Assembly (NCBI GenBank): GCA_019637895.1
Contig: JAHBUU010000006.1
Location: 1-40,282 of the forward strand
Direction of reading: 5' to 3'
Source of the DNA: Pseudobdellovibrionaceae bacterium
GTDB lineage: Bacteria > Bdellovibrionota > Bdellovibrionia > Bdellovibrionales > Bdellovibrionaceae
DNA: 40,282 nt
Below, piece by piece: positions 19,860-33,877 of the stretch. Below the pieces are notes generated by a model. The model saw only the letters and a list, made by a program, of their open reading frames with translations, did not search any database and was not told where the DNA came from. Each line of letters starts with the position of its first letter. Position 1 is the stretch's first letter. The position numbers and the translations under genes were made by a program.

Positions 19860-20234
19860 ATGAAAAAGAACGCAAAGACCATCGCGCTGATTGCCCACGA
19901 CGGAAAAAAAGCCGAGCTCATCGCTTTCGTGAAAGACCACATCGAGTTTTTCAAGGGGTTCAAACTCGTGGCGACGGGCACCACGGGTTCGCATGTTCAA
20001 CGCACCGGCCTCAAGGTCAAACGCCTGCTGTCGGGTCCCGTCGGCGGTGACGCACAGATCGCAAGCCTCGTTGCCACGGGAAAATGCCAGGCCGTGATTT
20101 TCATGCGCGACCCTCTCGGCATGCATCCTCACGAGCCAGACATTCACGGTCTTTTGCGCATTTGCGAAGTTCACGACGTGCCCTTGGCGACGAATCCCGC
20201 AACGGCCAAACTGCTCGTCAAAGGATTCCGATGA
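19860..20234 (+). CDS. mgsA: Methylglyoxal synthase MgsA
   Basis: MgsA converts dihydroxyacetone phosphate to methylglyoxal and phosphate, a bypass of lower glycolysis. In the 124-aa protein the phosphate-binding TGTTG (39-43), the catalytic Asp in GPVGGDAQI (D64, matching E. coli D71), and H91/D94 in HPHEPD (matching H98 and D101) are all present with E. coli spacing. The N-terminal IAHDGKK (H13) also fits. It is shorter than E. coli MgsA (152 aa), mainly at both ends, but within the family range. It lies 8 nt after mazG. Confidence 0.95.
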   Translation: MKKNAKTIALIAHDGKKAELIAFVKDHIEFFKGFKLVATGTTGSHVQRTGLKVKRLLSGPVGGDAQIASLVATGKCQAVIFMRDPLGMHPHEPDIHGLLRICEVHDVPLATNPATAKLLVKGFR

Positions 20235-20818: not shown

Positions 20819-21949
20819 ATGAAAAACCGGTTGATCCCAGCAACGATCACCACTTTCGCCACCGCGGTGCTTTTGGCAGGATGCTCGAAGCCCGCGGACT
20901 CCTTCTCTCTCCTCTCGGATGAAGCGAGTTTCAAACAAGACGTGGCCTACGTTCAACGGAAAGTCGACATCCTCTGGGTGATCGATAACTCCGGCTCGAT
21001 GGACATCAGCCAGCAAAAACTGGCCAGTAACTTTCAATCATTCATCAACCGCTTTGAACAGCTCGGTTATGACTTCCAGATGGGCGTCGTCACCACGTTC
21101 GCCTATCAGGACTATTACTACGGAACGAAAGATCGCTCGCGCCTCAAGGACCGTGGCCGAGACACCAAGGGAACCGATACCTGCAATGACGATACAGATC
21201 GTTATACAGGCGTTCGAATCATGAACAAAAATACGCCGAACCTGAACCAAGTCTTCATGAGCAATATCATGCAAGGGATCTGCGGCGGTGGAGATGAACG
21301 GGGCCTTTCAAGTATCGAGATGGCTCTGTCAAATCCAGACAACCAGTCTCTGCTCCGACCCGGCGCTTTCCTGTCAATTATTGTCGTCAGTGACGAGCAC
21401 GACACGAGCTACGAAGACTGGCAAAACGGCATCTCCAGCTATGCGGCCTGGGACGGCTTTCCTTCATGGAATAAACCGACCTTGTTCCCGATCTCTCGCT
21501 TCGTGAACTTCTTGAACACGAAAACGAACTCGGTCACAGGTGGCATTCGTAACTGGTCCGTCAGCACCATCGCGGTGTTGGACAGTGCCTGCAAGACCCA
21601 GTTGGACAATGCGGACACGAGCGGATTCAAACGGACCTACGGAACACGTTACGCAGATATGGCCGATGCCTCACAAGGAACCAAAGGCTCCCTGTGCGAC
21701 AACTTCGGCGACACCCTCTCGACGATCTCTGACCAAGTCGTGAATCTGGCGAGCGTGTTCAAACTGAACCGTGAACCCATCGAATCCACGATCACCGTGC
21801 GCGTGAACGGAGTGGCGATCCCTAAAGATGCCACCAACGGTTGGACCTACGATGCGGCGACCATCGCGATCCACTTCCACGGCTCCGCGATCCCTGCGGC
21901 CGGCGCAGACGTGAGAATCGCCTTCGACCCTAAATCGGTGAAACTGTAA
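20819..21949 (+). CDS. VWA-domain lipoprotein, CglB-like adhesin candidate
   Basis: This 376-aa protein has a lipoprotein signal with lipobox LAGC (C22) and Ser at +2, so an outer-membrane destination is likely. From about residue 48 it has a von Willebrand A domain: strand VDILWVID followed by a full MIDAS DxSxS (D56, S58, S60), and a later Asp in IIVVSDEHD (D192). Four Cys (C122, C155, C258, C293) could form disulfides. The last about 70 residues look like a small beta-domain. In Myxococcus the gliding adhesin CglB is also a VWA-type outer-membrane lipoprotein, so the first gene of this motor operon is a good candidate for the surface adhesin. RBS is GGAGG 6 nt before the ATG. Confidence 0.9.
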   Translation: MKNRLIPATITTFATAVLLAGCSKPADSFSLLSDEASFKQDVAYVQRKVDILWVIDNSGSMDISQQKLASNFQSFINRFEQLGYDFQMGVVTTFAYQDYYYGTKDRSRLKDRGRDTKGTDTCNDDTDRYTGVRIMNKNTPNLNQVFMSNIMQGICGGGDERGLSSIEMALSNPDNQSLLRPGAFLSIIVVSDEHDTSYEDWQNGISSYAAWDGFPSWNKPTLFPISRFVNFLNTKTNSVTGGIRNWSVSTIAVLDSACKTQLDNADTSGFKRTYGTRYADMADASQGTKGSLCDNFGDTLSTISDQVVNLASVFKLNREPIESTITVRVNGVAIPKDATNGWTYDAATIAIHFHGSAIPAAGADVRIAFDPKSVKL

Positions 21950-21994
21950 GAGAGACTGCAAGCGAAGACAGACGGAAACAAGGACGGGACGGAT

Positions 21995-22585
21995 ATGTTA
22001 GCGAAAACAGACCCACGCAACCAATGGTACATCCTTCGAGGTGAGGACAAATACGGTCCCTTCGAATATATGTCCATGGTTCGCATGATGCAAAACAACG
22101 AGTTGTACGATTACAACTACGTTTGGGCTCCGCACCTCGAAAGCTGGACTCTTGCGGGCGAACTGGCCGACTTTTCCCAAGACCGCATGGCTCGTCTGAT
22201 CGAAAGCGGCGTGATCAAACCCACCGGCTCATTCATCGACCGTCAAGCGGACCGCGCCGATATCGTGGTTCCCGTTTATGGACATAACGGTCATATGTTC
22301 TTCGACGGCCAAAGCCTGAGCATCAGCGCCAACGGTTCGCTGCTGCTGTTGAATACTCCGCTCATGCTTCCGGGACAGGAATTCCACCTGCATTTCCGGA
22401 ACGGAGGAGCGAACAAAACCGCTTTCAACGTTCGAGCTCAAATTGTGCGAAAAAACTATACCCGAACCAGAATCAATGTGAAGTCCGGCCTGCACTATGC
22501 GGTCCGGTTTATCCAAATCTCCCGGACGGGAGAGGATGTTCTCAAAGAATTGGTGAAGGAACACTCTAAGGAGGCAAAGCAATGA
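21995..22585 (+). CDS. GYF-PilZ two-domain cytoplasmic regulator
   Basis: This 196-aa protein has no signal peptide. Residues 8-60 match a GYF_2 domain: QWYILRGEDKYGPFEY, then VWAPHLESWTLAGEL. Residues 80-180 look like a PilZ domain with the RxxxR arm (R83-x3-R87) and a SxSxxG turn (S109, S111, G114), close to the (D/N)xSxxG c-di-GMP consensus but with Ser in place of Asp/Asn. In Myxococcus a GYF domain is part of GltJ and is used for polarity control of the gliding motor; here it is separate and joined to PilZ. It overlaps the ExbB/TolQ gene by 4 nt. Role inferred: cytoplasmic control input to the motor. Confidence 0.85.
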   Translation: MLAKTDPRNQWYILRGEDKYGPFEYMSMVRMMQNNELYDYNYVWAPHLESWTLAGELADFSQDRMARLIESGVIKPTGSFIDRQADRADIVVPVYGHNGHMFFDGQSLSISANGSLLLLNTPLMLPGQEFHLHFRNGGANKTAFNVRAQIVRKNYTRTRINVKSGLHYAVRFIQISRTGEDVLKELVKEHSKEAKQ

Positions 22586-23292
22586 CTGCTTTTATCACTT
22601 TCATGAACGATTCAGGGGCCGTCGGTTGGTTCATTCTTTTGACCGGCGTCGGAACCATGGTTCTCGTGGTCGAACGGGCTCGTGCCCTGTTCCTCCATTA
22701 CGGAATGAACGCGGAAGAATTCATGAGCCGCATTCAAACCCTGGTCCTGTCCCGCAAGTTGGATGAAGCTCTCGTGCTCTGCTCTCAAATGGAAAAGAAA
22801 CCCCTCGCCAAAGCCTTCAAGACCATTCTTGAAAAGGCCGACCGCGATGACGAAACGATCTTCCAGGCACACGACATTGCGATGTCTGAAGCGGTTCCGC
22901 TTTACACTCGCCGTTTGCACTATTTGAGTATGCTTGCGAACGTGGCGACCCTCTTGGGTCTCTTGGGAACCATCCACGGTCTGATCATCTCGTTTAGCGC
23001 GGTCGCTCAGGCGGACCCGGCAGCGAAGCAGCATTTGCTCGCAAACGGGATCTCGGTCTCGATGTACACCACCGCTCTGGGTCTGGCCGTGGCGATCCCG
23101 GCGATGGTGTTCTACTCCTTCTTGGTCGCTCGACAGAACAGTCTTGTCGAACAGGCCACGGAAAAGTGCTCGAAACTGACGGAGCTTCTGACCAGTGCTC
23201 ATATTCCTTCGCTGAACAGACAGGCCGTTTTCCCGGATTCCATGGCGGCACCGGTGATTCAGCCTCCGAACCCGAACAGTAAGGTTTCCTAA
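22582..23292 (+). CDS. MotA/TolQ/ExbB proton channel protein (AglR-like)
   Basis: This 236-aa inner-membrane protein has three TM helices: about 15-32 (WFILLTGVGTMVLVVERA), about 115-137 and about 155-178. The cytoplasmic domain between TM1 and TM2 and the conserved LGLLGTIHGLI and TTALGLAVAIP segments are those of ExbB/TolQ/AglR. The conserved Thr residues in TM2 and TM3 are present. The C-terminal 35 residues are Pro-rich and disordered. It lies just before two ExbD/TolR-type genes, matching the AglRQS motor of Myxococcus (one TolQ-like, two TolR-like), which uses proton flow to drive gliding. RBS AAGGAGG. Confidence 0.93.
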   Translation: MTAFITFMNDSGAVGWFILLTGVGTMVLVVERARALFLHYGMNAEEFMSRIQTLVLSRKLDEALVLCSQMEKKPLAKAFKTILEKADRDDETIFQAHDIAMSEAVPLYTRRLHYLSMLANVATLLGLLGTIHGLIISFSAVAQADPAAKQHLLANGISVSMYTTALGLAVAIPAMVFYSFLVARQNSLVEQATEKCSKLTELLTSAHIPSLNRQAVFPDSMAAPVIQPPNPNSKVS

Positions 23293-23319
23293 GTAAAGCC
23301 CTCAAGGAGGAGGTGAACC

Positions 23320-23874
23320 ATGCGTGGACGGCGCTGGCTTAGTCACGATACGACAGGCGAATTCGAACTCGATCTGGCCCCACTTTTGGCAGTGATGGTG
23401 AAACTGGTTCCGGTTCTGCTCGTAAGCTCCGCTTTCGTGCAGCTCATGGTGGTGGAAACCGAACTGCCCCAGGTGGTCAAAGAAGCAGTTCAACAAAACA
23501 ACGACCCCAAAAACGACATCGCGAAAATTCGCCTTGTCGTCGATGGGAAAAACGGCATGAAAGTCGTCATCGCTCATCAGGGGAAGGAGCAGGAAACCGA
23601 CATTCCCCTGAAAGACGGTGCCTTCGACTTCCAGGGCTTGCACGAAAAGCTTGTCGCCATCAAACAGGCGAATCCGGCGGTCTTCAAGATCGACCTGATG
23701 CCCGGCGCAGGCGTCGAGTACGGCGACCTCATCAAAGTCATGGATGAGGCCCGGCGCAGCCGAGACAACCGAATCACCTTCCCCGTTTTCGATGCCCAGA
23801 AAAACGCAGAGACCCAGACTCCATTCATGTTCCCGGAAGTGGTCTTTGCCAACAGCTTGGAGACAGGCGCATGA
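23320..23874 (+). CDS. ExbD/TolR-family protein lacking the TM aspartate
   Basis: This 184-aa protein has a short cytoplasmic N-terminus, one TM helix (about 19-42) and a periplasmic ExbD/TolR domain. The family motif normally reads xxxTPLIDVM, where the Asp carries protons; here it is LAPLLAVMVKLVP, with Ala (A24) at the Asp position and a Lys (K28) one turn later. The periplasmic part (about 66-150) has the usual ExbD-like strands, followed by a C-terminal extension of about 30 residues. It overlaps the next exbD-like gene by 4 nt. It is probably a structural partner rather than the proton carrier in the stator. Confidence 0.88.
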   Translation: MRGRRWLSHDTTGEFELDLAPLLAVMVKLVPVLLVSSAFVQLMVVETELPQVVKEAVQQNNDPKNDIAKIRLVVDGKNGMKVVIAHQGKEQETDIPLKDGAFDFQGLHEKLVAIKQANPAVFKIDLMPGAGVEYGDLIKVMDEARRSRDNRITFPVFDAQKNAETQTPFMFPEVVFANSLETGA

Positions 23875-24365
23875 GCCGCAGAAAAAGACCCCACTTCGGA
23901 GTGAGCCGCAAGAGCACGTTCGCTCTCAATATCACGTCCCTCACGGACATGTTCACGATCATGCTGGTATTCCTGCTGCAGACCTTCGCGACGTCGGATG
24001 TGCAGCTCGAACCCGCCCAGGGCATCCGACTTCCGACATCGACATCGAACCTGAACCCGATCGAGGGTGTCAGATTGATTGTCACTAAAGACCAACTTCT
24101 CATCGGGGAACAAAAGATCGCGGATCTGAAAGACAAAAAGTTCGACGCTCATGACATAGATGGGGCAGATGCGAACTTCCTTCCGCTTCTTTTTAACGAG
24201 TTGGATAAACTCGCGAAAAATTCGACCGATGAGCATATCAAGGAAGGCCGGATCCTCCTCCAGGCGGACGCGTCCCTTCCTTACGACACTCTGAGAAAAG
24301 TACTTTATACCGCCTCGATGGCTGGCTTCCCTCAACTAAAAATGGTGGCCATGCTCGGCAACTGA
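23871..24365 (+). CDS. ExbD/TolR-family protein with conserved TM aspartate (AglQ/AglS-like)
   Basis: This 164-aa protein has a basic N-terminus, one TM helix (about 20-42, NITSLTDMFTIMLVFLLQTFA) with the proton-carrying Asp at D26, and a periplasmic domain with ExbD-like VRLIVTKDQLLIGEQKI and ILLQADASLPYDTLRKVLYTA. It is therefore the likely proton-translocating subunit of the stator formed with the ExbB/TolQ-like protein. It is translationally coupled (4-nt overlap) to the Asp-less paralogue. Confidence 0.92.
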   Translation: MSRRKRPHFGVSRKSTFALNITSLTDMFTIMLVFLLQTFATSDVQLEPAQGIRLPTSTSNLNPIEGVRLIVTKDQLLIGEQKIADLKDKKFDAHDIDGADANFLPLLFNELDKLAKNSTDEHIKEGRILLQADASLPYDTLRKVLYTASMAGFPQLKMVAMLGN

Positions 24366-24388
24366 GGATTTGAAAAAGGACGTGCGCC

Positions 24389-27300
24389 ATGAAGACGCAG
24401 ACATATCACTCAAGGACGAAGATCAACCCTCTGGCGCCGATCCTTTTCGGCGTCTTCCTGCTCTCGTTTCTATTCGCGGATGCCGCCAGTCCCCAGGACA
24501 ACCGCGGCCTGCTGCCCGAAGTTCGATTGAACTCTGGGAACGAGGACGAAAACGAGAAACGGTCACTGCAAACCGAGCTGTTGGTCACCCGCGCCGAAAC
24601 CAAAGCCATTGAGAGTCTGCAAAAAATCCTCAAAAAGAAAAAAGGCTCGCCTGACGAAGCCGACCTTCTGCACCGTCTCGCCGAGTTGTATATGCGTCGC
24701 TCACGCACGGGACGGTTCTTCGACCTGCATCAGGACTCGAAGACCATGAAGCTTTCGACCTTCCCAATGCCAACGGAAAAAGGCGCGGACTGGATCCGCA
24801 AAGCTGCCGCGACCTATACCGATGTGGAAAAACGTTTCCCCAAATACCATGACCTGGATTCGGTTATCTTCAACAATGCGTTTGCCAACCAGCAACTGAA
24901 CAATATTCGTCAGGCTGAAATCCTTTATCAACGTCTGATCGATCAAAAGCCGAACTCGCGATTGGTTCCTGACGCCGCCGTGGCCTTGGGAGAACTCGCC
25001 TATGACCAGCGCCGTTTCGCCTTGGCACTGGGACACTTCGCCGTGGCTGAAAAGTTCCCCGAATCCCGCGTCTATACCTACGCGCTCTACAAGTCCGCTT
25101 GGGCTCATTACAATATGAAAGACTCTGACCAAGGGGTGAAACGCCTGTTGGAAGTGGTCGAGGCCTGCCCTCCCGACTTCCAAGGTGATCAAGCCAAGAA
25201 CCGTCAGAACCTGCGTCGTGAGGCCCTGCGCGACCTGACGATCTTTGTCGGCGACTCCCGTACCGCCGCCGAACTCTATCCGTTCTTCAAAAAAATCACG
25301 ACCGAAGAGGAACTCGGCCAGTCGATGATGGATTTGTCCAAGCTGTACATGTCCCACAGTAAGTACAAAGACATGGACATCTTCCTCGGCGAGTTCATGA
25401 AGAAACACCCAAAAAACGCTTTCCGCGTGAAGGCCAACCTGAACTTGGTCGAAGCCAACGAAAACCTCAAAGCCCGGGAAAAAGTTCTTTCGAACCTCAG
25501 AAGCGCTGCCGAGCTCTGCCGTCCGGACTCTTCCTGGAGAGCCGCACAGCCCAATGAAATCGTCGAAGAATCCTGCTCGAAAATGTTCAAGTCGGAAACC
25601 AATGCCATCGCCGCCAAATGGTGGGAGATCTGGCAGAAGAACAAAAACCACAAGGAATTCTCGGGCCTCCTCGAGCAGGCATTGAAGGTCGTTCTCGATA
25701 ACGAGGACCCGAACTCTCCGGACCTGAACTCTCGCTTTGGTTATGCGGAACTCTTGTTCCAATTGCAGCGGTATGCAGAGGCCTCCGAGAACTATTCGAA
25801 GACCGCCGAGAGCATGACCATGCTGTCCTGGATTTCCCCGGACGAAAAATCAGTCAAGCCGACAACCGATGCCCAAGGTGTCGTCGTCATGAATCCCAAG
25901 GTGAAAGTCGCCCCTGAAGACGTGAAACGCCTTCACGACGCGGACTACGGCGCCCTCTTCTCTTTGGAAAAGTCGGTCGAGAAAAAGGCCAATGCAACCG
26001 TGGATGCCAAACGCAAATGGTTGGCCCAAACCTATCTGAGTCGCCACCCCAAAGGCGAACACGCTGGCGACGTGACCATGCGAATGGCCGTTTTGTTTTA
26101 CGAAGGACAGGACCTGGCCTCGGCAAAAAAATGGCTCGAGCCTCTGCTGGCTGGAAAACATGGTCGTACGCTCCAGGTCAAAGCCGAAGACCTCACCCTG
26201 GATATTCTGAACCTCGAAAAAAACTACCAAGGACTCGCTTCCCATTCGAAGGCCTTCCAGGCTCTCGAAAAAGATGAGACCCGCAAAAAATCTTTGAAGA
26301 AAATCGAAGTCGAAGCCGCCTATGCCGGTCTGCAAGAAGACATCAAGAAGCTCGACAAGGACCAAGCTGCCACCAAGCTGCGTGAGTTCTCGGAAGCTCA
26401 CAAGGGGATGAGCCTTTCTTCGGAAGCGCTCTTCCAGTCGGCTGCTTTGGATTTCGTGAACGGACGGGGCCTTGCCGCTGCCGATTCGATCAAGGCTTTC
26501 GCCGCCGTCGCTCCTGGTGACAAACGCGTGACCGATGCCCTGCGGGACTCGGCCCGAGCCAGTGCCGAAGCTGGTGAAATGACGAAAGCGGCCGAATTGC
26601 TGACTAAGCTCGCCGACCGCGATACCAAGAATCGTTCGACTCATCTGGAAAACGCGGCTGACTTTTTACTCATGGAAGGCCGAACCAAACAAGCTCGCGG
26701 GGTCTACAACCTGCTTCTGCCGAATGCCCCAACCGCAGATCGCGTTCGTCTGTATACAAAAGTTCTTGAAACCTTGAAAGACGATCCGAACTCTTCGGAA
26801 GCCCGAAAACTGGAGTCCCTGATTCTCAGTCAGAATCTGGAGCCTTTCGCCACCAAGATTCTGACGGAACGGGCCGAAGCCCTTTTCTCGAGTGGCAAAA
26901 AGCCCGAAGCCTTCGAGGCCGCCCGCAAAATCATGTCTCGCGAGGCCCCGGCCGATCTCCGTGCTCGCGCCCGCCTAATCCAAGCTCGAATTCTCGAAGG
27001 AGAATTTTTGCAACAGTCCGTGAAATCCTCGAGCGCCGAACGCTTCGGCATGGTGCTCGCGATGAAATTCGAAAAACTCGAAAAGGCGCAGACCGCCTTT
27101 CTTTCGGCTTCGAAGATGAGCCCCGAAGCGCAGATCCAAGCCGACGCCTTTGGTGGAATCGATCGCTGCTACAGCCATCTGGTCGATGCGATCGAGAGCA
27201 TTCAGATCCCGGCCGCACTGTCCCCTGCCGATCAGCAGGCCTTGAAAGCCGAGCTCGCGAACATGCTTGGCCCGCTCAAAGGAAAACGTGACGAGAACCG

Positions 27301-28195
27301 CAAACAGATCCGCAGCCTCGCCTCGGTGGCCGTGTCGAACGCCTCCGGTCAGCAATGGGCCGACCTCAGCGGCGACGCCAGCCCAGCGCCCCTGGTGGCC
27401 GGCCAATGGGCTTTCCTGAAGCCCTATGTTCCAGCCAACTGGCCAGAGAAAGCCTCTGGCTTCAGTCGCCAGGACATTTCGGACAAGAAGCCTTCTTGCG
27501 ACGAGAAAAAGCCCGAGTTCGCTCGCTGTTTCGCCGCCGGCAAAATCGAGACGGCTGAAAAAGTCGCCCGCGATATGACTCAGGACAAAGCCAACCGCAT
27601 TCGCGGATGGCATCACCTGGCACTGGTTGCGGACGCTCGTGGCCTCAAGACGAAGGCTTTGTGGCTTCTCCGATTGGCTGAAAAAGAGAATCCGCATCAT
27701 CCTCTCGTTCGCTACGAGAAAGGACGTTTGCTCTCTCAACTCGAAGACACCAACGCCGCGTCTGCGGATTTCGCCGAAGTTTTGAACTCGTCCATGAGTT
27801 CGACAGAAATCGAAATCTTGAAGGGTTTCAAGGCCTTCTCAGAGGGAGACGCAAAGACCGTTCAAACGATTTTTTCTGGATTTTCAAAAAAGGAGCTTTA
27901 TCATTTGAATCTAGGACCCGTGCTGAGCGAGAGCATCGCGCAGCTTGGAGACTCGGACAAGGCCCTGAAACTCATCTCTGAATTGGCGGCGATGGGTTCC
28001 GATGTTGAACTGCTGGTTCAACAAGGGCGATTGAACGAAGTTTACAAGTTCGCACCGGTGCCGGCCCTCGAGGCTTATGAAAAGGCTCGGAAGCTGGCAA
28101 AGGATCCCGCTCAGAGAGACTGGTTAGGACGGAAAACAGAATATTTGAAAGTCAACTTCAAGGTCGGACTGCACGTTACTCCCGAAGGCTTGTGA
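24389..28195 (+). CDS. Very large periplasmic TPR/alpha-solenoid protein (GltD/AgmU-like)
   Basis: This 1268-aa protein has an N-terminal hydrophobic segment (PLAPILFGVFLLSFLFADA, about 13-31) that is probably a signal peptide. Almost all the rest is alpha-helical with TPR-like pairs, for example ADLLHRLAELYMRRSRTG, EILYQRLIDQKPNSRLVPDAAVALGELAYDQ and ALWLLRLAEKENPHHPLVRYEKGRLL. In the gliding clusters of Myxococcus a TPR protein of similar size (AgmU/GltD, about 1200 aa) is essential and periplasmic. The match is on architecture, size and neighbours, not on a computed alignment. RBS AAGGA 8 nt before the ATG. Confidence 0.88.
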   Translation: MKTQTYHSRTKINPLAPILFGVFLLSFLFADAASPQDNRGLLPEVRLNSGNEDENEKRSLQTELLVTRAETKAIESLQKILKKKKGSPDEADLLHRLAELYMRRSRTGRFFDLHQDSKTMKLSTFPMPTEKGADWIRKAAATYTDVEKRFPKYHDLDSVIFNNAFANQQLNNIRQAEILYQRLIDQKPNSRLVPDAAVALGELAYDQRRFALALGHFAVAEKFPESRVYTYALYKSAWAHYNMKDSDQGVKRLLEVVEACPPDFQGDQAKNRQNLRREALRDLTIFVGDSRTAAELYPFFKKITTEEELGQSMMDLSKLYMSHSKYKDMDIFLGEFMKKHPKNAFRVKANLNLVEANENLKAREKVLSNLRSAAELCRPDSSWRAAQPNEIVEESCSKMFKSETNAIAAKWWEIWQKNKNHKEFSGLLEQALKVVLDNEDPNSPDLNSRFGYAELLFQLQRYAEASENYSKTAESMTMLSWISPDEKSVKPTTDAQGVVVMNPKVKVAPEDVKRLHDADYGALFSLEKSVEKKANATVDAKRKWLAQTYLSRHPKGEHAGDVTMRMAVLFYEGQDLASAKKWLEPLLAGKHGRTLQVKAEDLTLDILNLEKNYQGLASHSKAFQALEKDETRKKSLKKIEVEAAYAGLQEDIKKLDKDQAATKLREFSEAHKGMSLSSEALFQSAALDFVNGRGLAAADSIKAFAAVAPGDKRVTDALRDSARASAEAGEMTKAAELLTKLADRDTKNRSTHLENAADFLLMEGRTKQARGVYNLLLPNAPTADRVRLYTKVLETLKDDPNSSEARKLESLILSQNLEPFATKILTERAEALFSSGKKPEAFEAARKIMSREAPADLRARARLIQARILEGEFLQQSVKSSSAERFGMVLAMKFEKLEKAQTAFLSASKMSPEAQIQADAFGGIDRCYSHLVDAIESIQIPAALSPADQQALKAELANMLGPLKGKRDENRKQIRSLASVAVSNASGQQWADLSGDASPAPLVAGQWAFLKPYVPANWPEKASGFSRQDISDKKPSCDEKKPEFARCFAAGKIETAEKVARDMTQDKANRIRGWHHLALVADARGLKTKALWLLRLAEKENPHHPLVRYEKGRLLSQLEDTNAASADFAEVLNSSMSSTEIEILKGFKAFSEGDAKTVQTIFSGFSKKELYHLNLGPVLSESIAQLGDSDKALKLISELAAMGSDVELLVQQGRLNEVYKFAPVPALEAYEKARKLAKDPAQRDWLGRKTEYLKVNFKVGLHVTPEGL

Positions 28196-28222
28196 TGTTG
28201 ACACGGACAAGGACGGTTCACG

Positions 28223-28477
28223 ATGGGAACAAGGATTGTCGGTGTCATCACCTTTGTGGCGGCGTGTTTGATCGCGCTGCCGCTGGTGGCAGGCCCCAAA
28301 AAATCAGTTAGAAAAGTACAAGAGGTCAACTTCGCCGAGATGAGCCTGAAAGGGACCATTCGCAATCCGGATGGCGCCTACCTGGTTCAAAAGCGCGGTC
28401 TTCGTTTCATGCCTTTGCACGATGTGAAAAAGGATATGGACGCAAGAATCCGTGAAAGCTCTTTCTACGTGAAATAA
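28223..28477 (+). CDS. Small exported protein of the motor operon, 84 aa
   Basis: It starts at ATG 28223 after AAGGACGG, 27 nt after the giant TPR gene and 13 nt before the FHA/TonB-like gene. An N-terminal hydrophobic segment (about 4-23, IVGVITFVAACLIALPLVAG) is a signal peptide or membrane anchor. The mature part of about 60 residues is basic and contains MSLKGTIRNPDGAYLVQKRG and ends RESSFYVK. I do not know a family. Its position inside the operon argues for a periplasmic accessory subunit. Confidence 0.75.
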   Translation: MGTRIVGVITFVAACLIALPLVAGPKKSVRKVQEVNFAEMSLKGTIRNPDGAYLVQKRGLRFMPLHDVKKDMDARIRESSFYVK

Positions 28478-28490
28478 GGCGAGGCGCTTC

Positions 28491-29903
28491 ATGAGACATC
28501 TGATTGTACGACAAGAATTAAAAAACGGCGCCAACAGAACGTGGAGGCTTCGGGGATCCGATAAGCCGTCCACTCTGGGCACCTCCCGCTTGGCGGATCT
28601 TCCGTCGGCGGACTCTTCGATCCATGGGATCGAAGGCGCTTTCGAACAGCGCGCCGGTGAATGGTACTGGTTGAACTTCAATCCTTCGAAGGTCGACGAG
28701 CCAGCCGAAGTCCGCGTCGAAGAAGGTATGAAGTTGCTGGTCGGAGACTCCACTCTGATTTGCGCCTTCCATGAAAAAAACCACGATATCTATGGCAAGC
28801 TCGCCTCCTCGACCGCCTCCCAAGCCGGAGCCGGGACTTCGATGTATGAGATCGAAATCGTCAAATTCGGCGAACGCGTGCTTTCAACCAAGGTTCTGAA
28901 AAAAGGTGCGGCTGAATCCCGCGCCGCCAAAGATGCTCGCGCTCTCGCTGGCGACAAGGTCACGGTCATCCGTCGTGACATCCATCTGTCCTCGATCCGC
29001 GAGTTGGAAAAACTGTCCCCGCAAAAAGCCATGGATGCCGAAAGCCGTCGTGGCGCTCTCATCGTCGGGATCAGCACGGTGCTGTTTGCACTGGTTGCTC
29101 TCTTCGGTCCAAAGACGACCATCGAGCCGATGGCCGCCCTGCCGCCAATTCCTCAGAAAGTCACGGTCGCCATGGTGCCGATGAAAATGAAGAAAGGCAC
29201 CGTGGTCGAAAAGAAAATGAAGGAAATGGAAAAGCAGGCTCCTGCCGCCGGAACCGATGCCCCGAAAGGCGGAGGTCAGGTCGCCGGGATCATGAGAGCC
29301 GTGAACACAGGCCGCTTGTCACGACTCCTTGGCAAAGTTTCCGCCCAAGCCGCACGCTCGAAAGAAGTCATCGTGAGTGCGACCGGAGTCAAAGCCGGCG
29401 AAGGCATTTCCGGGACGGCTCTGGCCGCCATGGGAAAAGTCGATCAAAGCGGTGGTGACTGGAATGCTGCTGCCACCGGAACCGGCGTGACCGTTTCCAC
29501 GGCAGGTCGAGGCGGTGGACGAAGCACGGCGGGCCTCGGAGGTTTGAGTGCTGGAGGCACGGGCTCGGCCGGGGTCGGTCTGATCGAAGACGAATCGGAA
29601 AGTTCGGGTGGTTTGGATCGTGACGTCATTGCGGGCGTCATCAAAAGCTACCTTGGTCAGATTCTTTATTGCTACGAGCGACAGCTCTCTGCAAACCCGG
29701 ATCTTTTCGGAAAAGTGGCCGTCCGTTTCACGATCGGTCCCGCAGGATCGGTTGAAACTCAGGCCATCGGAGACACAACACTTAAAAATGCGACCGTCGA
29801 GGGATGTATTCTGAATAGAGTCGCTGGATGGAAGTTCCCTGCACCACTGGGTGGAACCAAGGTCATGGTGACCTATCCATTCTTGTTCAAGAGTACAAAC
29901 TAA
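28491..29903 (+). CDS. FHA-like / TM / TonB-like protein with AgmX/PglI C-terminal domain (GltG-like)
   Basis: This 470-aa inner-membrane protein has three parts. Residues 1-100 look like a degenerate FHA fold (STLGTSRLADLPSADSSIHG; the usual phosphothreonine-binding IGR is LGT). One TM helix lies at about 188-206. The periplasmic part has a KKMKEMEK helix, a Gly/Ala/Ser-rich linker (about 300-370), and a C-terminal domain (about 374-470) with LYCYERQLSANPDLFGKVAVRF and EGCILNRVAGWKFPAP, the hallmark of the AgmX/PglI C-terminal family. GltG of Myxococcus has the same FHA-TM-TonB-like order. It is the likely link between cytoplasmic control, the stator and the periplasmic/outer-membrane parts. 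Confidence 0.9.
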   Translation: MRHLIVRQELKNGANRTWRLRGSDKPSTLGTSRLADLPSADSSIHGIEGAFEQRAGEWYWLNFNPSKVDEPAEVRVEEGMKLLVGDSTLICAFHEKNHDIYGKLASSTASQAGAGTSMYEIEIVKFGERVLSTKVLKKGAAESRAAKDARALAGDKVTVIRRDIHLSSIRELEKLSPQKAMDAESRRGALIVGISTVLFALVALFGPKTTIEPMAALPPIPQKVTVAMVPMKMKKGTVVEKKMKEMEKQAPAAGTDAPKGGGQVAGIMRAVNTGRLSRLLGKVSAQAARSKEVIVSATGVKAGEGISGTALAAMGKVDQSGGDWNAAATGTGVTVSTAGRGGGRSTAGLGGLSAGGTGSAGVGLIEDESESSGGLDRDVIAGVIKSYLGQILYCYERQLSANPDLFGKVAVRFTIGPAGSVETQAIGDTTLKNATVEGCILNRVAGWKFPAPLGGTKVMVTYPFLFKSTN

Positions 29904-29920
29904 GGACGGAGGAAACGACA

Positions 29921-30667
29921 ATGAACATCAGGACGATGACGACGGCATGGAGCCTCATTGGATTGCTCGTAGGATTGACCCAACCCGCTTGGGCGCAACA
30001 ACGTGAGTCCGACAAACTCGATATCAAAAAACTCGAGGACAAATACTGGTCCGCAAAAGACGACGATTTTAGCGTCGTTCAAAACCGGGCTTTCCCGAAA
30101 GCCAAACGCTTTTACGGCTCTCTTCAATATGGGATGCCGGTGAACGACCCCTACTCGGACGGTTCGCTGACCGGTCTGTCCCTGGGATATCACTTTTCTG
30201 AGCGCTGGGGCTTGGAAGCGACCTTCCTCGTAGCAGACTATAAAAACAATGATGCCGTGAGCCAGTTCGTCAGCGATCACGGAACGACTCCGAACCACAA
30301 CACCCTGAAGTCCATGCGCGGCCTTCAGCTCAATTATGTTCCCTTGTATGCGAAGATGAGCTTCCTCGATAAGAAGATCATCTACTTCGACATGGGTGTC
30401 GGCTTGGGAATCGGTCAAACGGCCTTCACGCAAAACATCGTGACCGGCGACAAAGAAGTGACCGAACTCAACTATACCTTGAGTTTGTATCAGCACTTTT
30501 TCGTTTCGGAACACTTTGCGTTCAAGTTCGACTTCCGCAATACGTGGACGAACGAAGAACGTATGCGCTACAAGCTCCCCGGAGGAACGCCCGAATCCGA
30601 ACGTTCCCTCGGCAAGAAATCAATCAACGACACGATGTTGTTATTCGGAATCACGTTCTTCCTCTAA
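29921..30667 (+). CDS. Outer-membrane beta-barrel protein of the motor operon
   Basis: The start is ATG 29921 after GGACGGAGGAAAC; a frame open upstream to 29828 lies inside the previous gene and is rejected. The 248-aa product has a signal peptide ending AWA-Q, a short helical/charged segment (about 27-60), then alternating strands (FYGSLQYGMPVN, LTGLSLGYHFSERWGLEATFLVA, IIYFDMGVGLGIGQTAFT, YTLSLYQHFFVSEHFAFKFDFRNTW) and a C-terminal LLFGITFFL typical of barrel proteins. It resembles the small outer-membrane beta-barrel family found in deltaproteobacterial gliding clusters (GltA/GltB-type). It probably anchors the machine in the outer membrane. Confidence 0.87.
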   Translation: MNIRTMTTAWSLIGLLVGLTQPAWAQQRESDKLDIKKLEDKYWSAKDDDFSVVQNRAFPKAKRFYGSLQYGMPVNDPYSDGSLTGLSLGYHFSERWGLEATFLVADYKNNDAVSQFVSDHGTTPNHNTLKSMRGLQLNYVPLYAKMSFLDKKIIYFDMGVGLGIGQTAFTQNIVTGDKEVTELNYTLSLYQHFFVSEHFAFKFDFRNTWTNEERMRYKLPGGTPESERSLGKKSINDTMLLFGITFFL

Positions 30668-30691
30668 GCAGGGACGAATCACGGAGGATTT

Positions 30692-32761
30692 ATGTTACAC
30701 ATTGAAAAGCTCGCTCTCAGCCTTCTGATCGCCCTGACCGGAGCTTCCAGCGCCCACGCGCAGGAGCTCCTGAGCAAAAAAACCTCGGGACGTTCTTCGA
30801 AGGGTTTGAAAATGAAATCTTCGAAGGTTCCAACCTACGAGATCCATAAAGCCGGGAATGTCATTCCCCGCCTGGATCTGGGCGAAGAACCGATCTTGGA
30901 ATATCAAGAGCCCTCGGCGCTGGCGACGGTCATTCCTGGCTTGCAAATGAAGCCGCTGGAAAAGCGGATGTCCCCAGTGATCGTCAAAATGGACAAAAAA
31001 ACCTCGAACTCCCGCCAAGCCAAGGCATCCACCGTCAACAAAGTGGTGAGCGTCGGGAATGCCCCCGATGTTCCTGCCGAAAAAACCGTTGCGGATCCCG
31101 TGCTCGCCGAAAGCTCGGTCACCGCCCAAAAGCTGAACCCCTTGTCACCAGCGGAAAGCAAACTCTTGCAGGCACAGATTCTGCTCGAGTACCACGACAG
31201 CGCGGACATCGCCTTGGGTCTTCTGGTCGACCTTTTGGAAAACAAAGAGGTTCAGACCGAAGCCCGCTATACCTACGCTTTGGCCGCTCGCAAACTGGGA
31301 CTGCACTCCGAGTTCCGCTCGATTCTGATGAAGATCGCTCAGGAATCGAAATCGAAGGATTGGGCAAAGCTCGCCACCGAAGCCTTGGTTCGTGAGGTCG
31401 AAGCCCTGGATATTTCGGATATGAAGATCCTGAGTTCTCTAGTCGACCGTGATGGGATCGATACCGATAAAAACGACGCTTACAACTTTTATCGAGCGAA
31501 ATACTTCCTGGAAACGGGCGATCTGGGACAGGTCGAGGATGCTCTGAAATACATCCCGGAAAAGTCGAAGTATCGCGCCGATGCCATGCTGATCTCGGCC
31601 TTGTCCTCTTATCGGAGCGGCAACATCGACAAAGCAGCCGGAAACCTCGAGGACTTGCTGAAAAGCAATCCTTCGAACGTGACCCTGCGTTCGATCGGTG
31701 CCCTGACCCTGGCCCGTATCCATTTCCAGAAGAACCGCTACAAAGAAGCCTCGTCCGCATATTTGAAAGTGGATCGTCAAAGCCCCCTGTGGCTGCAGGC
31801 CATGACCGAACAGGCCTGGACACAGATCCTCCTCGAGGATCATGAAGGTGCTGCCGGAAATATGTTCTCTTTGCACACGGACTTTTTTAAGAACGCGTTC
31901 GCTCCGGAAACCTACACGGTTCGCTCGATCGCCTATCTGAACTTGTGTCAGTACGGTGACGGACTGCAGGTTCTTTCGAGCCTGCGGAAACGCTATGGCC
32001 CGATCCTGGGTCGTTTAGAAAAGTACCGCGCGACCAAAACGCAACCGTCCGACTATTATGAAACCGTTCGTTCCTGGCTCAGGAACTCGGATCAAAAAGA
32101 AGTCGACGGCCTGCCACGGTCCTTTATCGTCGAGTTCGCCCGCCACCCTTCGTTCATGAACGTCCAAGGACAGATCAACCAGTTCGAAGACGAGCTTGAG
32201 CATTTCAGCAAAGCGAACCTCGAGCTGATTCAGAAGGAAAAGGAACTCCTCAAGTTCCAAAACGAGGCGCAGGATCGACTGGCCAAGATGCGCGAATCTC
32301 ACAAACGCGGCGGAGGATCCGAAGCTCAGTTCAAAGTCGAAACGCAGGCTCTGGAGCGCCAGATCGCCGGTGTGAAAATGCGCTACGAACTGGCTCGTAA
32401 GGCACGCGGTTTCATCAAAGACGCCCGAGCCCGCTCGTTTGCCCGGATCGAAAAAGAGAAAGTCCAGCTGCGCGAAAAGGCTTCGAAAGCTTTGAAAGCC
32501 CGCTTGGGAACTCTGGTCGCGGAACTGACGCATGTTCTGGAACAGAACGACGTCCTTCAGTACGAAATTCTGGCTGGCGCGGGCGAACACTTGCGTTCGC
32601 AGTCGGCCGGTGCCGAAGCGAAAGAAGGAAAACGCCTGCCTTCGAACGAGAAGAGCGTTCGTTGGGATTTCAAAGGCGAGATCTGGGAAGACGAAGTGGG
32701 ACACTATCGTTCTTCGCTGAAAAACGTCTGCTCTTCGGACGACAAACTGGCTTCACATTAA
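30692..32761 (+). CDS. Periplasmic TPR protein with coiled-coil segment (GltC/GltE-like position)
   Basis: This 689-aa protein has a signal peptide (about 1-23, ending AHA-Q). A disordered basic region (25-145) is followed by a TPR/solenoid region (about 150-440: AESKLLQAQILLEYHDSADIALGLL, NIDKAAGNLEDLLKSNPSNVTLRSIGALTLARIHFQ, YKEASSAYLKV). A coiled coil follows (about 500-625, ELEHFSKANLELIQKEKELL). The C-terminal motif VRWDFKGEIWEDEVGHYRS is followed by a single Cys. In Myxococcus, barrels GltA/GltB are encoded next to the TPR protein GltC; here the barrel and TPR genes are adjacent too. The exact orthologue is not certain. RBS GGAGG before ATG 30692. Confidence 0.87.
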   Translation: MLHIEKLALSLLIALTGASSAHAQELLSKKTSGRSSKGLKMKSSKVPTYEIHKAGNVIPRLDLGEEPILEYQEPSALATVIPGLQMKPLEKRMSPVIVKMDKKTSNSRQAKASTVNKVVSVGNAPDVPAEKTVADPVLAESSVTAQKLNPLSPAESKLLQAQILLEYHDSADIALGLLVDLLENKEVQTEARYTYALAARKLGLHSEFRSILMKIAQESKSKDWAKLATEALVREVEALDISDMKILSSLVDRDGIDTDKNDAYNFYRAKYFLETGDLGQVEDALKYIPEKSKYRADAMLISALSSYRSGNIDKAAGNLEDLLKSNPSNVTLRSIGALTLARIHFQKNRYKEASSAYLKVDRQSPLWLQAMTEQAWTQILLEDHEGAAGNMFSLHTDFFKNAFAPETYTVRSIAYLNLCQYGDGLQVLSSLRKRYGPILGRLEKYRATKTQPSDYYETVRSWLRNSDQKEVDGLPRSFIVEFARHPSFMNVQGQINQFEDELEHFSKANLELIQKEKELLKFQNEAQDRLAKMRESHKRGGGSEAQFKVETQALERQIAGVKMRYELARKARGFIKDARARSFARIEKEKVQLREKASKALKARLGTLVAELTHVLEQNDVLQYEILAGAGEHLRSQSAGAEAKEGKRLPSNEKSVRWDFKGEIWEDEVGHYRSSLKNVCSSDDKLASH

Positions 32762-32793
32762 TTAAACGAATCGATTCACGGAGGATTGATCAT

Positions 32794-33441
32794 ATGAACT
32801 TGAAAGCACTCACCATCATCACACTGACCGCCACCCTCCCCCTGTTTGCGCACGGGAACGAAGCGGGCTCGAAGGCCGGATTTAAACGCCTTCAGTCCAA
32901 CATCGAAAATGCCAAGGGGAACCTGGACGACTACAAAAAGAATCTGACGATCGTCGAAGGGAACATCACAGAATCGTCCAAGGCGCGTTCTCAGGCCGAT
33001 CGACAAAAATCCGAGATCGCCTCTTTGGTCAAAGACAATAAAACGTCCTTGCAGAAAATCGAAAAGCAGGAAAAAGACCTGAACGACCTGATCAAAGATG
33101 AACAAGGCAAAATCACGGCCGAAGACAAAGAGCTGAAACAGCTCGAGGCCATGGTCGCCAAGATCAAGGAAAACCGCCAGATCCGCGATGCGAATATCCA
33201 AAACTATCAATCGCAGATCCAGCAAATGCAGGCCGAAAAACAAACATGGGTTCAGCGCGATCAGGCTCTCGGCGGTCAACAGGCCAAGGCCAACCAGCGC
33301 GCCAAAGAACTCGCCAGCACTGAAAACGAATGGAAGAACAAAAAGAAAGGTTACGAAGCCGAAATCTCTCGTTGGTCCAAAGAGCTCGACAAACAACAAA
33401 AGAGCCTGAGCCAGTACGAAACCTTGGCCGAGAAGAAATAA
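32794..33441 (+). CDS. Periplasmic coiled-coil protein, last gene of the motor operon
   Basis: The ATG at 32794 is preceded by GGAGG; a longer frame upstream overlaps the TPR gene and is rejected. The 215-aa product has a signal peptide (about 1-20, ending FAHG) and is then almost entirely a heptad-rich, highly charged coiled coil (FKRLQSNIENAKGNLDDYK ... LQKIEKQEKDLNDLIKDEQ ... WSKELDKQQKSLSQYE). One break occurs near the Gly-Gly around residue 161. If helical throughout, it would be of the order of 28 nm long, enough to cross the periplasm. No known family is recognised. A terminator follows within about 25 nt, so it closes the operon. Confidence 0.85.
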   Translation: MNLKALTIITLTATLPLFAHGNEAGSKAGFKRLQSNIENAKGNLDDYKKNLTIVEGNITESSKARSQADRQKSEIASLVKDNKTSLQKIEKQEKDLNDLIKDEQGKITAEDKELKQLEAMVAKIKENRQIRDANIQNYQSQIQQMQAEKQTWVQRDQALGGQQAKANQRAKELASTENEWKNKKKGYEAEISRWSKELDKQQKSLSQYETLAEKK

Positions 33442-33465: not shown

Positions 33466-33500
33466 AAAAAAGCCTTGAGAGCAATCTCAAGGCTTTTCAT
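33466..33500. terminator. Strong bidirectional intrinsic terminator
   Basis: AAAAGCCTTGAGA-gcaa-TCTCAAGGCTTTT is a perfect 13-bp stem with A-rich and T-rich flanks on opposite sides. It lies between the end of the 11-gene plus-strand operon and the convergent minus-strand gene at 33530-33877, and serves both. Confidence 0.92.
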
Positions 33501-33529: not shown

Positions 33530-33877
33530 TTATTTTCGCAAGAGGCAGTTCATTTGAAACTTTGGAGCTTGAGGGTACTTGTTCCGATTGCAAGAGAAGG
33601 CGGCGACACCCGACTCACGGTCACCCGAGATGTCGAATTTGATCGCGCAGTCGCGAGTCTTTCCGAAAATATATCCCGTCGGCAAAAAGTCATAGACCTT
33701 TTCCAGGGTGAAGACCTGATGAGCCGTCGGCGAAGTCAAAGCCGCTGTGCCTTCGCCAAGATCAATGATGATGAAGGTATTGAGGATCGCGTGATTCCGA
33801 CATTCAAAAAGAGCCGAATAAGCGGATGCGGTTTGGGACAAAAGCAAAGCGACGGCGAACAAGGACAGGCGTTTCAT
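33530..33877 (-). CDS. Small secreted protein of unknown function, 115 aa
   Basis: The product has a clear signal peptide (MKRLSLFAVALLLSQTASA) and a mature domain of about 95 residues with four Cys (in ALFECRNH, TRDCAIKF, FSCNRN and FQMNCLL), likely two disulfides, and many beta-prone stretches (NTFIIIDLGEG, HQVFTLEKVYDF). RBS AAGGAGCC precedes the ATG. It is convergent with the motor operon and lies 93 bp downstream of murJ. I do not recognise a family; it is probably periplasmic or secreted. Confidence 0.75.
   Translation of the reverse strand: MKRLSLFAVALLLSQTASAYSALFECRNHAILNTFIIIDLGEGTAALTSPTAHQVFTLEKVYDFLPTGYIFGKTRDCAIKFDISGDRESGVAAFSCNRNKYPQAPKFQMNCLLRK

Follow-up and report, generated by a model that had tools for sequence, protein, structure and literature searches.

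An eleven-gene Agl/Glt-type operon in a Pseudobdellovibrionaceae bacterium corresponds to Bd1473-Bd1483 of Bdellovibrio bacteriovorus and carries a putative GltD-GltE fusion and a GYF-PilZ protein

The window analysed here is a stretch of 40,282 nucleotides from a Pseudobdellovibrionaceae bacterium (contig JAHBUU010000006.1), in which eleven ORFs, all on the plus strand and all confirmed by an ORF check, occupy positions 20819-33441. The gaps from gene 1 to gene 11 are, in order, 45, -4, 27, -4, 23, 27, 13, 17, 24 and 32 nt, and from this spacing we infer that the genes are co-transcribed. The gene order and the close packing given in the initial annotation were borne out by the ORFs, the gaps (-4 to +45 nt) and the domain matches. 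Gene 9 most likely starts at ATG 29921, giving a signal peptide, instead of at 29828; gene 11 starts at ATG 32794 instead of TTG 32662. As for the proposed end terminator, a 14-pair hairpin (33467-33498, no strand assigned) does lie 3' of gene 11, between convergent genes, but the pattern scan scored it on the minus strand only, for the convergent gene at 33530-33877; it may be a bidirectional terminator serving both this gene and the operon. A methylglyoxal synthase is encoded just 5' of the operon (19860-20234).

Gene 1 (20819-21949, the position of Bd1483) encodes a MIDAS/VWA lipoprotein that is a candidate surface adhesin. It matches the NCBIfam models MIDASAdhsBdello (7e-19) and CglD (2e-12), and its Cys22 and DxSxS motif (D56, S58, S60) are invariant in an alignment of 13 sequences. 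A phmmer search of the PDB with this protein gave no match; its AlphaFold model (pLDDT 80) matched integrin beta-subunit headpieces in Foldseek with an E-value of 1e-8, at an overall TM of only about 0.4. The protein shares with the MIDAS adhesins Bd1483 and Bd0875 a lipobox, a MIDAS domain and a small beta-rich domain (for gene 1, in the predicted model), but differs in scoring 68.1 bits where the NCBIfam MIDAS family adhesin equivalog NF052240 has a cut-off of 700 bits, which it misses.

Gene 2 (21995-22585, the position of Bd1482) encodes a GYF-PilZ protein, with Pfam matches to GYF_2 (2.7e-9) and PilZ (1.4e-9). The RxxxR and SxxG motifs of the PilZ domain are conserved, and the [D/N] place of [D/N]xSxxG is a serine in the window and variable in relatives. 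The predicted PilZ fold is nearest to those of MotI/DgrA and c-di-GMP-bound YcgR, which act on stators of the MotA type. Searched against PDB sequences, the gene 2 profile matches best to the GYF domain of Myxococcus xanthus GltJ/AgmX (7z3c, E 5e-5), a match that is weaker than it appears if, as may be the case, few bacterial GYF domains have been solved. That the GltJ GYF domain comes out best among solved structures suggests a c-di-GMP-responsive adaptor for AglR/GltG, and Bd1482 was earlier put forward as a protein that might receive c-di-GMP signals for gliding (PMC3271064).

The next three genes encode the motor. Gene 3 (22582-23292, the position of Bd1481) specifies AglR, a MotA/TolQ/ExbB-type proton channel subunit (MotA_ExbB, 1e-25) that is 77% identical to its counterpart in B. 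bacteriovorus kdesi and 86% identical to that in the sister genome. It is followed by two AglQ/AglS-type ExbD subunits, gene 4 (23320-23874, the position of Bd1480; ExbD 5.5e-17) and gene 5 (23871-24365; ExbD 3.4e-15). By profile models, genes 3-5 thus hold in one cluster the AglR, AglQ and AglS homologues of the Agl/Glt core described by Luciano et al. in 2011. Against the TolQ and ExbB equivalogs gene 3 scores 59.6 and 44.5 bits, far under the respective cut-offs of 221 and 206, and membership of a Tol-Pal or TonB system was rejected on this basis.

Gene 6 (24389-28195) encodes an exported protein previously described only as a giant TPR protein; TPR it is, but as a fusion of GltD-like and GltE-like parts that are split ORFs at the syntenic place elsewhere. 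The first ~930 positions of its profile align to separate ORFs of ~1000 aa in other lineages, and the remainder to lipoprotein ORFs of ~300 aa. The GltE name for these short ORFs is provisional, based on weak model hits (1e-10 to 0.018, with generic TPR models often outscoring GltE) and on gene order. The GltE model itself gives no match to the fused C-terminus of gene 6, and no GltD model matched this gene. By a simple pattern, a lipobox occurs in 22 of 28 split loci, in the short ORF and never in the long one, and in 0 of 29 fused loci. On a tree of four concatenated proteins, obtained by a quick search and with some long branches, the fused state requires two changes. At locus L140, GltD and GltE are fused within an otherwise split clade, in a second and apparently independent fusion. 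A partial literature search found no earlier report of a GltD-GltE fusion, and the joining of the two parts without the lipoprotein signal of GltE appears to be an unreported detail.

Gene 7 (28223-28477) encodes a small exported protein with a weak match to CglF, another name for GltF (5e-4 over 57 residues); its position between GltE and GltG is conserved. Gene 8 (28491-29903) encodes a GltG-like transducer (NCBIfam GltG, 8e-39; myxo_SS_tail, 1e-30, above cut-off), and its earlier description as an FHA-like protein with a transmembrane segment and an AgmX/PglI tail holds for the single TM and the TonB-like tail. Its N-terminus is, by sequence comparison, FHA-derived but degenerate, since Pfam FHA matches 4 of the 17 members aligned over this region and gives no match to the window gene itself; an intact FHA domain was accordingly rejected. 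Gene 9 (29921-30667) encodes an outer-membrane beta-barrel of the OMP_myx_plus type (TIGR04565, 1e-24, above cut-off; Pfam OMP_b-brl, 1e-8), and gene 10 (30692-32761) a GltC-like TPR/coiled-coil periplasmic protein (GltC, 8.8e-33, under the equivalog cut-off), the GltC model matching 0 of 14 control genomes. Gene 11 (32794-33441) encodes an exported coiled-coil protein of 215 aa with coiled-coil-type matches only, and adjoins gene 10 in all loci of the eleven-gene layout that reach that far.

The matches to the NCBIfam GltG, GltC and CglF models, taken with the missed TolQ and ExbB cut-offs, support an Agl/Glt assignment at the level of homology rather than of equivalogs. The GltG and GltC homologues of the Luciano core are both present, both under their equivalog cut-offs, and no operon product reached the equivalog cut-off of any Glt model. 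The proposal that a single operon combines motor, GltG, GltC, barrel and VWA lipoprotein in a machine of Agl/Glt type is therefore sustained by the Pfam and NCBIfam matches, and the outcome that the initial annotation had named as contrary to it, a placement with Tol-Pal or TonB and no relation to Glt proteins, did not occur. The comparison with Myxococcus was made through NCBIfam models and the PDB GYF domain, in place of full-length M. xanthus Agl/Glt sequences. The operon shares with the M. xanthus machine the order of GltD-, GltE-, GltF- and GltG-like parts, an AglRQS-type motor, GltC and a VWA lipoprotein (CglB/CglD). In M. xanthus, however, the genes are spread over the G1, G2 and M1 clusters (PMC3169522), whereas here the set forms one operon, in which GltE is fused to GltD, a GYF domain is joined to PilZ, and GltI, GltJ and GltK were not identified. 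Genome-wide profile searches covered the tail, GltG and GltC; within the operon, where the GltI and GltK models were searched, neither matched, and the GltJ model matched only the tail shared with GltG.

The arrangement is widely conserved. A GltG relative was found in 40 of 40 genomes searched (the source genome and 39 relatives), and a scan of a genome collection gave 80 loci, none with a Myxococcota title. The synteny survey across Bdellovibrionota recommended by the initial annotation showed the complete gene 1-11 order in 22 named genomes among these loci, including B. bacteriovorus kdesi and Bdellovibrio sp. qaytius; many of the other loci end at contig ends or follow a second layout. 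Identical order in so many genomes indicates that the arrangement is more than chance. All eleven genes match those of kdesi in the same order at 40-77% protein identity, and those of the nearest relative, Bdellovibrionaceae ACE_BDE1, at 53-86%.

The operon is the counterpart of Bd1473-Bd1483 of B. bacteriovorus HD100, a cluster that also has eleven genes, with a MIDAS lipoprotein (Bd1483; PMC11003981), a PilZ protein at the 5' end of a gliding operon (Bd1482; PMC3271064), aglR (Bd1481; PMC2277423) and aglQ (Bd1480; PMC9140294) at the places of genes 1 to 4. The order typical of this cluster, with the MIDAS lipoprotein first and then PilZ, aglR and aglQ, was recovered using HD100 annotation and kdesi sequence. 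The two are not the same, in that the source is a different, undescribed species; the 40-77% identity refers to kdesi, and HD100 was compared by annotation. The united layout was thus already known: four agl operons including Bd1473-Bd1483 were listed for HD100 in 2010 (PMC2797640), and Luciano et al. described four expanded core complexes in Bdellovibrio in 2011, together with a single-locus set, Bd0828-0838 (PMC3169522). The system itself is not new, but two points in the joining of its parts, the GltD-GltE fusion and the GltJ-like GYF domain attached to PilZ, appear unreported.

The source genome contains other loci of this kind. Contig C157 carries GltE, GltF, GltG, AglR and two ExbD genes, with GltD cut at the contig end, and contig C95 carries GltC, a barrel and a further portion of a GltD-like protein. 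Genes of this type lie together in ACE_BDE1 and, at least from GltC to the motor, in kdesi, so that assembly has probably split a single locus into C95 and C157. This set corresponds, by gene content only, to the Bd0828-0838 type, with which it shares homologues of GltC, GltD, GltF, GltG and AglRQS that form one locus in relatives. It differs from the window operon in having a separate lipoprotein GltE, a GltG of about 700 aa with an FHA region and, in the sister genome, a second barrel; no VWA or GYF-PilZ gene was seen in the C95/C157 stretch. Its scores against the Myxococcus models are higher (GltC 187 versus 101 bits, GltF 39.5 versus 20, total GltG 238 versus 134), and we rejected the window operon as the genome's closest relative of the Myxococcus set. 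With this second, more Myxococcus-like set, a single barrel and no GltI, GltJ or GltK identified, the operon does not merit the term "complete" given to it. A third locus, on contig C171 (L006, L007), has AglR, ExbD, TPR, GltG, barrel and GltC-like genes and a VWA lipoprotein gene at its 3' end. The same genome encodes a small GTPase (L175, 540-1133) that matches only small_GTP in NCBIfam and that we take to be MglA-like.

We consider it probable (roughly 0.7) that the operon specifies one of the trans-envelope machines of Agl/Glt type found in Bdellovibrionales, the Bd1473-Bd1483 counterpart, and serves surface gliding. AglR and the two ExbD proteins would form a proton-driven stator in the inner membrane and move the GltG-like protein, whose TonB-like tail would project into the periplasm. 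Force would cross this compartment by way of the fused GltD-GltE protein, GltF, GltC and the coiled-coil protein and so reach the outer-membrane barrel, and the surface MIDAS lipoprotein could then grip the substratum or the prey cell, turning motor strokes into gliding. On the cytoplasmic side, gating of the motor by a cyclic dinucleotide probably runs through the GYF-PilZ protein. In a more specific and distinctly tentative form of this scheme, gene 2 would be a cyclic-dinucleotide clutch whose GltJ-like GYF domain docks on the motor or on proteins that partner it and whose PilZ domain engages AglR in the way that MotI or YcgR engages MotA, which would put the gliding motor under the direct control of second messengers, while the joining of GltE to GltD would remove the lipid anchor of GltE from the force path.

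The gliding reading is favoured by the gene-for-gene match to kdesi, the gene order shared by 22 named genomes, the HD100 annotation, the Glt-model, myxo_SS_tail and OMP_myx_plus matches and the MglA-like GTPase gene. It is also favoured by published data, including indirect genetic support from B. bacteriovorus: biofilm predation was weaker with transposon insertions attributed to bd1481 and bd1483 (PMC2277423), bd1480 is surface-induced in the wild type and has lower expression in the bd0367 mutants (PMC9140294), a non-gliding class (PMC3271064), and AglR interacts with GltG in Myxococcus (PMC3169522). Against it count the normal prey invasion of a bd1483 deletion (PMC11003981), the choice by Luciano et al. 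of Bd0828-0838, not Bd1473-1483, as the best gliding candidate (PMC3169522), the C95/C157 scores, the lack of any Glt equivalog cut-off reached, and a 2026 review that regards the Bdellovibrio gliding machinery as unidentified and its motor, adhesins and force path as a major open challenge (PMC13104615). A gliding function is thus likely, with the other clusters remaining candidates.

The strongest competitor, though an unlikely one, is that the machine drives movement during predation (on entering the prey, inside the bdelloplast or at exit) and that a C95/C157-type cluster is responsible for gliding. The latter set is nearer the Myxococcus Glt models, and the four HD100 clusters differ in timing, with Bd0412-0420 up early in predation, Bd2368-2377 up at exit and Bd1476-1481 down on entry; the surface induction of bd1480, its lowering in the non-gliding bd0367 mutants and the unimpaired invasion without bd1483 argue the other way. 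We give very little weight to a role in moving or depositing a surface polymer or coat instead of the cell, on the pattern of the Myxococcus Nfs system. Nfs, the system most closely related to Glt, lacks gltI, J and K (PMC3169522), none of which was identified in the operon, but it works in sporulation, and the linked MIDAS lipoprotein, GYF-PilZ protein and surface-induced bd1480 fit more readily with adhesion and motility. That the system is an ordinary Tol-Pal or TonB energiser with gained neighbours is scarcely credible: among solved structures, those nearest to the ExbB-like subunit are indeed TolQ and ExbB, but the equivalog scores are far too low and GltG-, GltC- and GltF-like partners keep a fixed order across many genomes.

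The strictness with which Bdellovibrionales keep this eleven-gene order leaves fewer candidates for the gliding machine, and concrete points for testing are provided by the GYF-PilZ protein and the GltD-GltE fusion. Among the scanned loci, nine (L135, L137, L139, L142, L144, L145, L150, L152 and L154) show a stripped layout, in which GYF-PilZ, AglR, two ExbD and GltG follow one another and no GltC, GltD or barrel match lies alongside. One further locus (L115, CALQIT020000055.1), which contains a portion of the Bdellovibrionales operon, has a record title, Streptomyces griseus, that is probably wrong.
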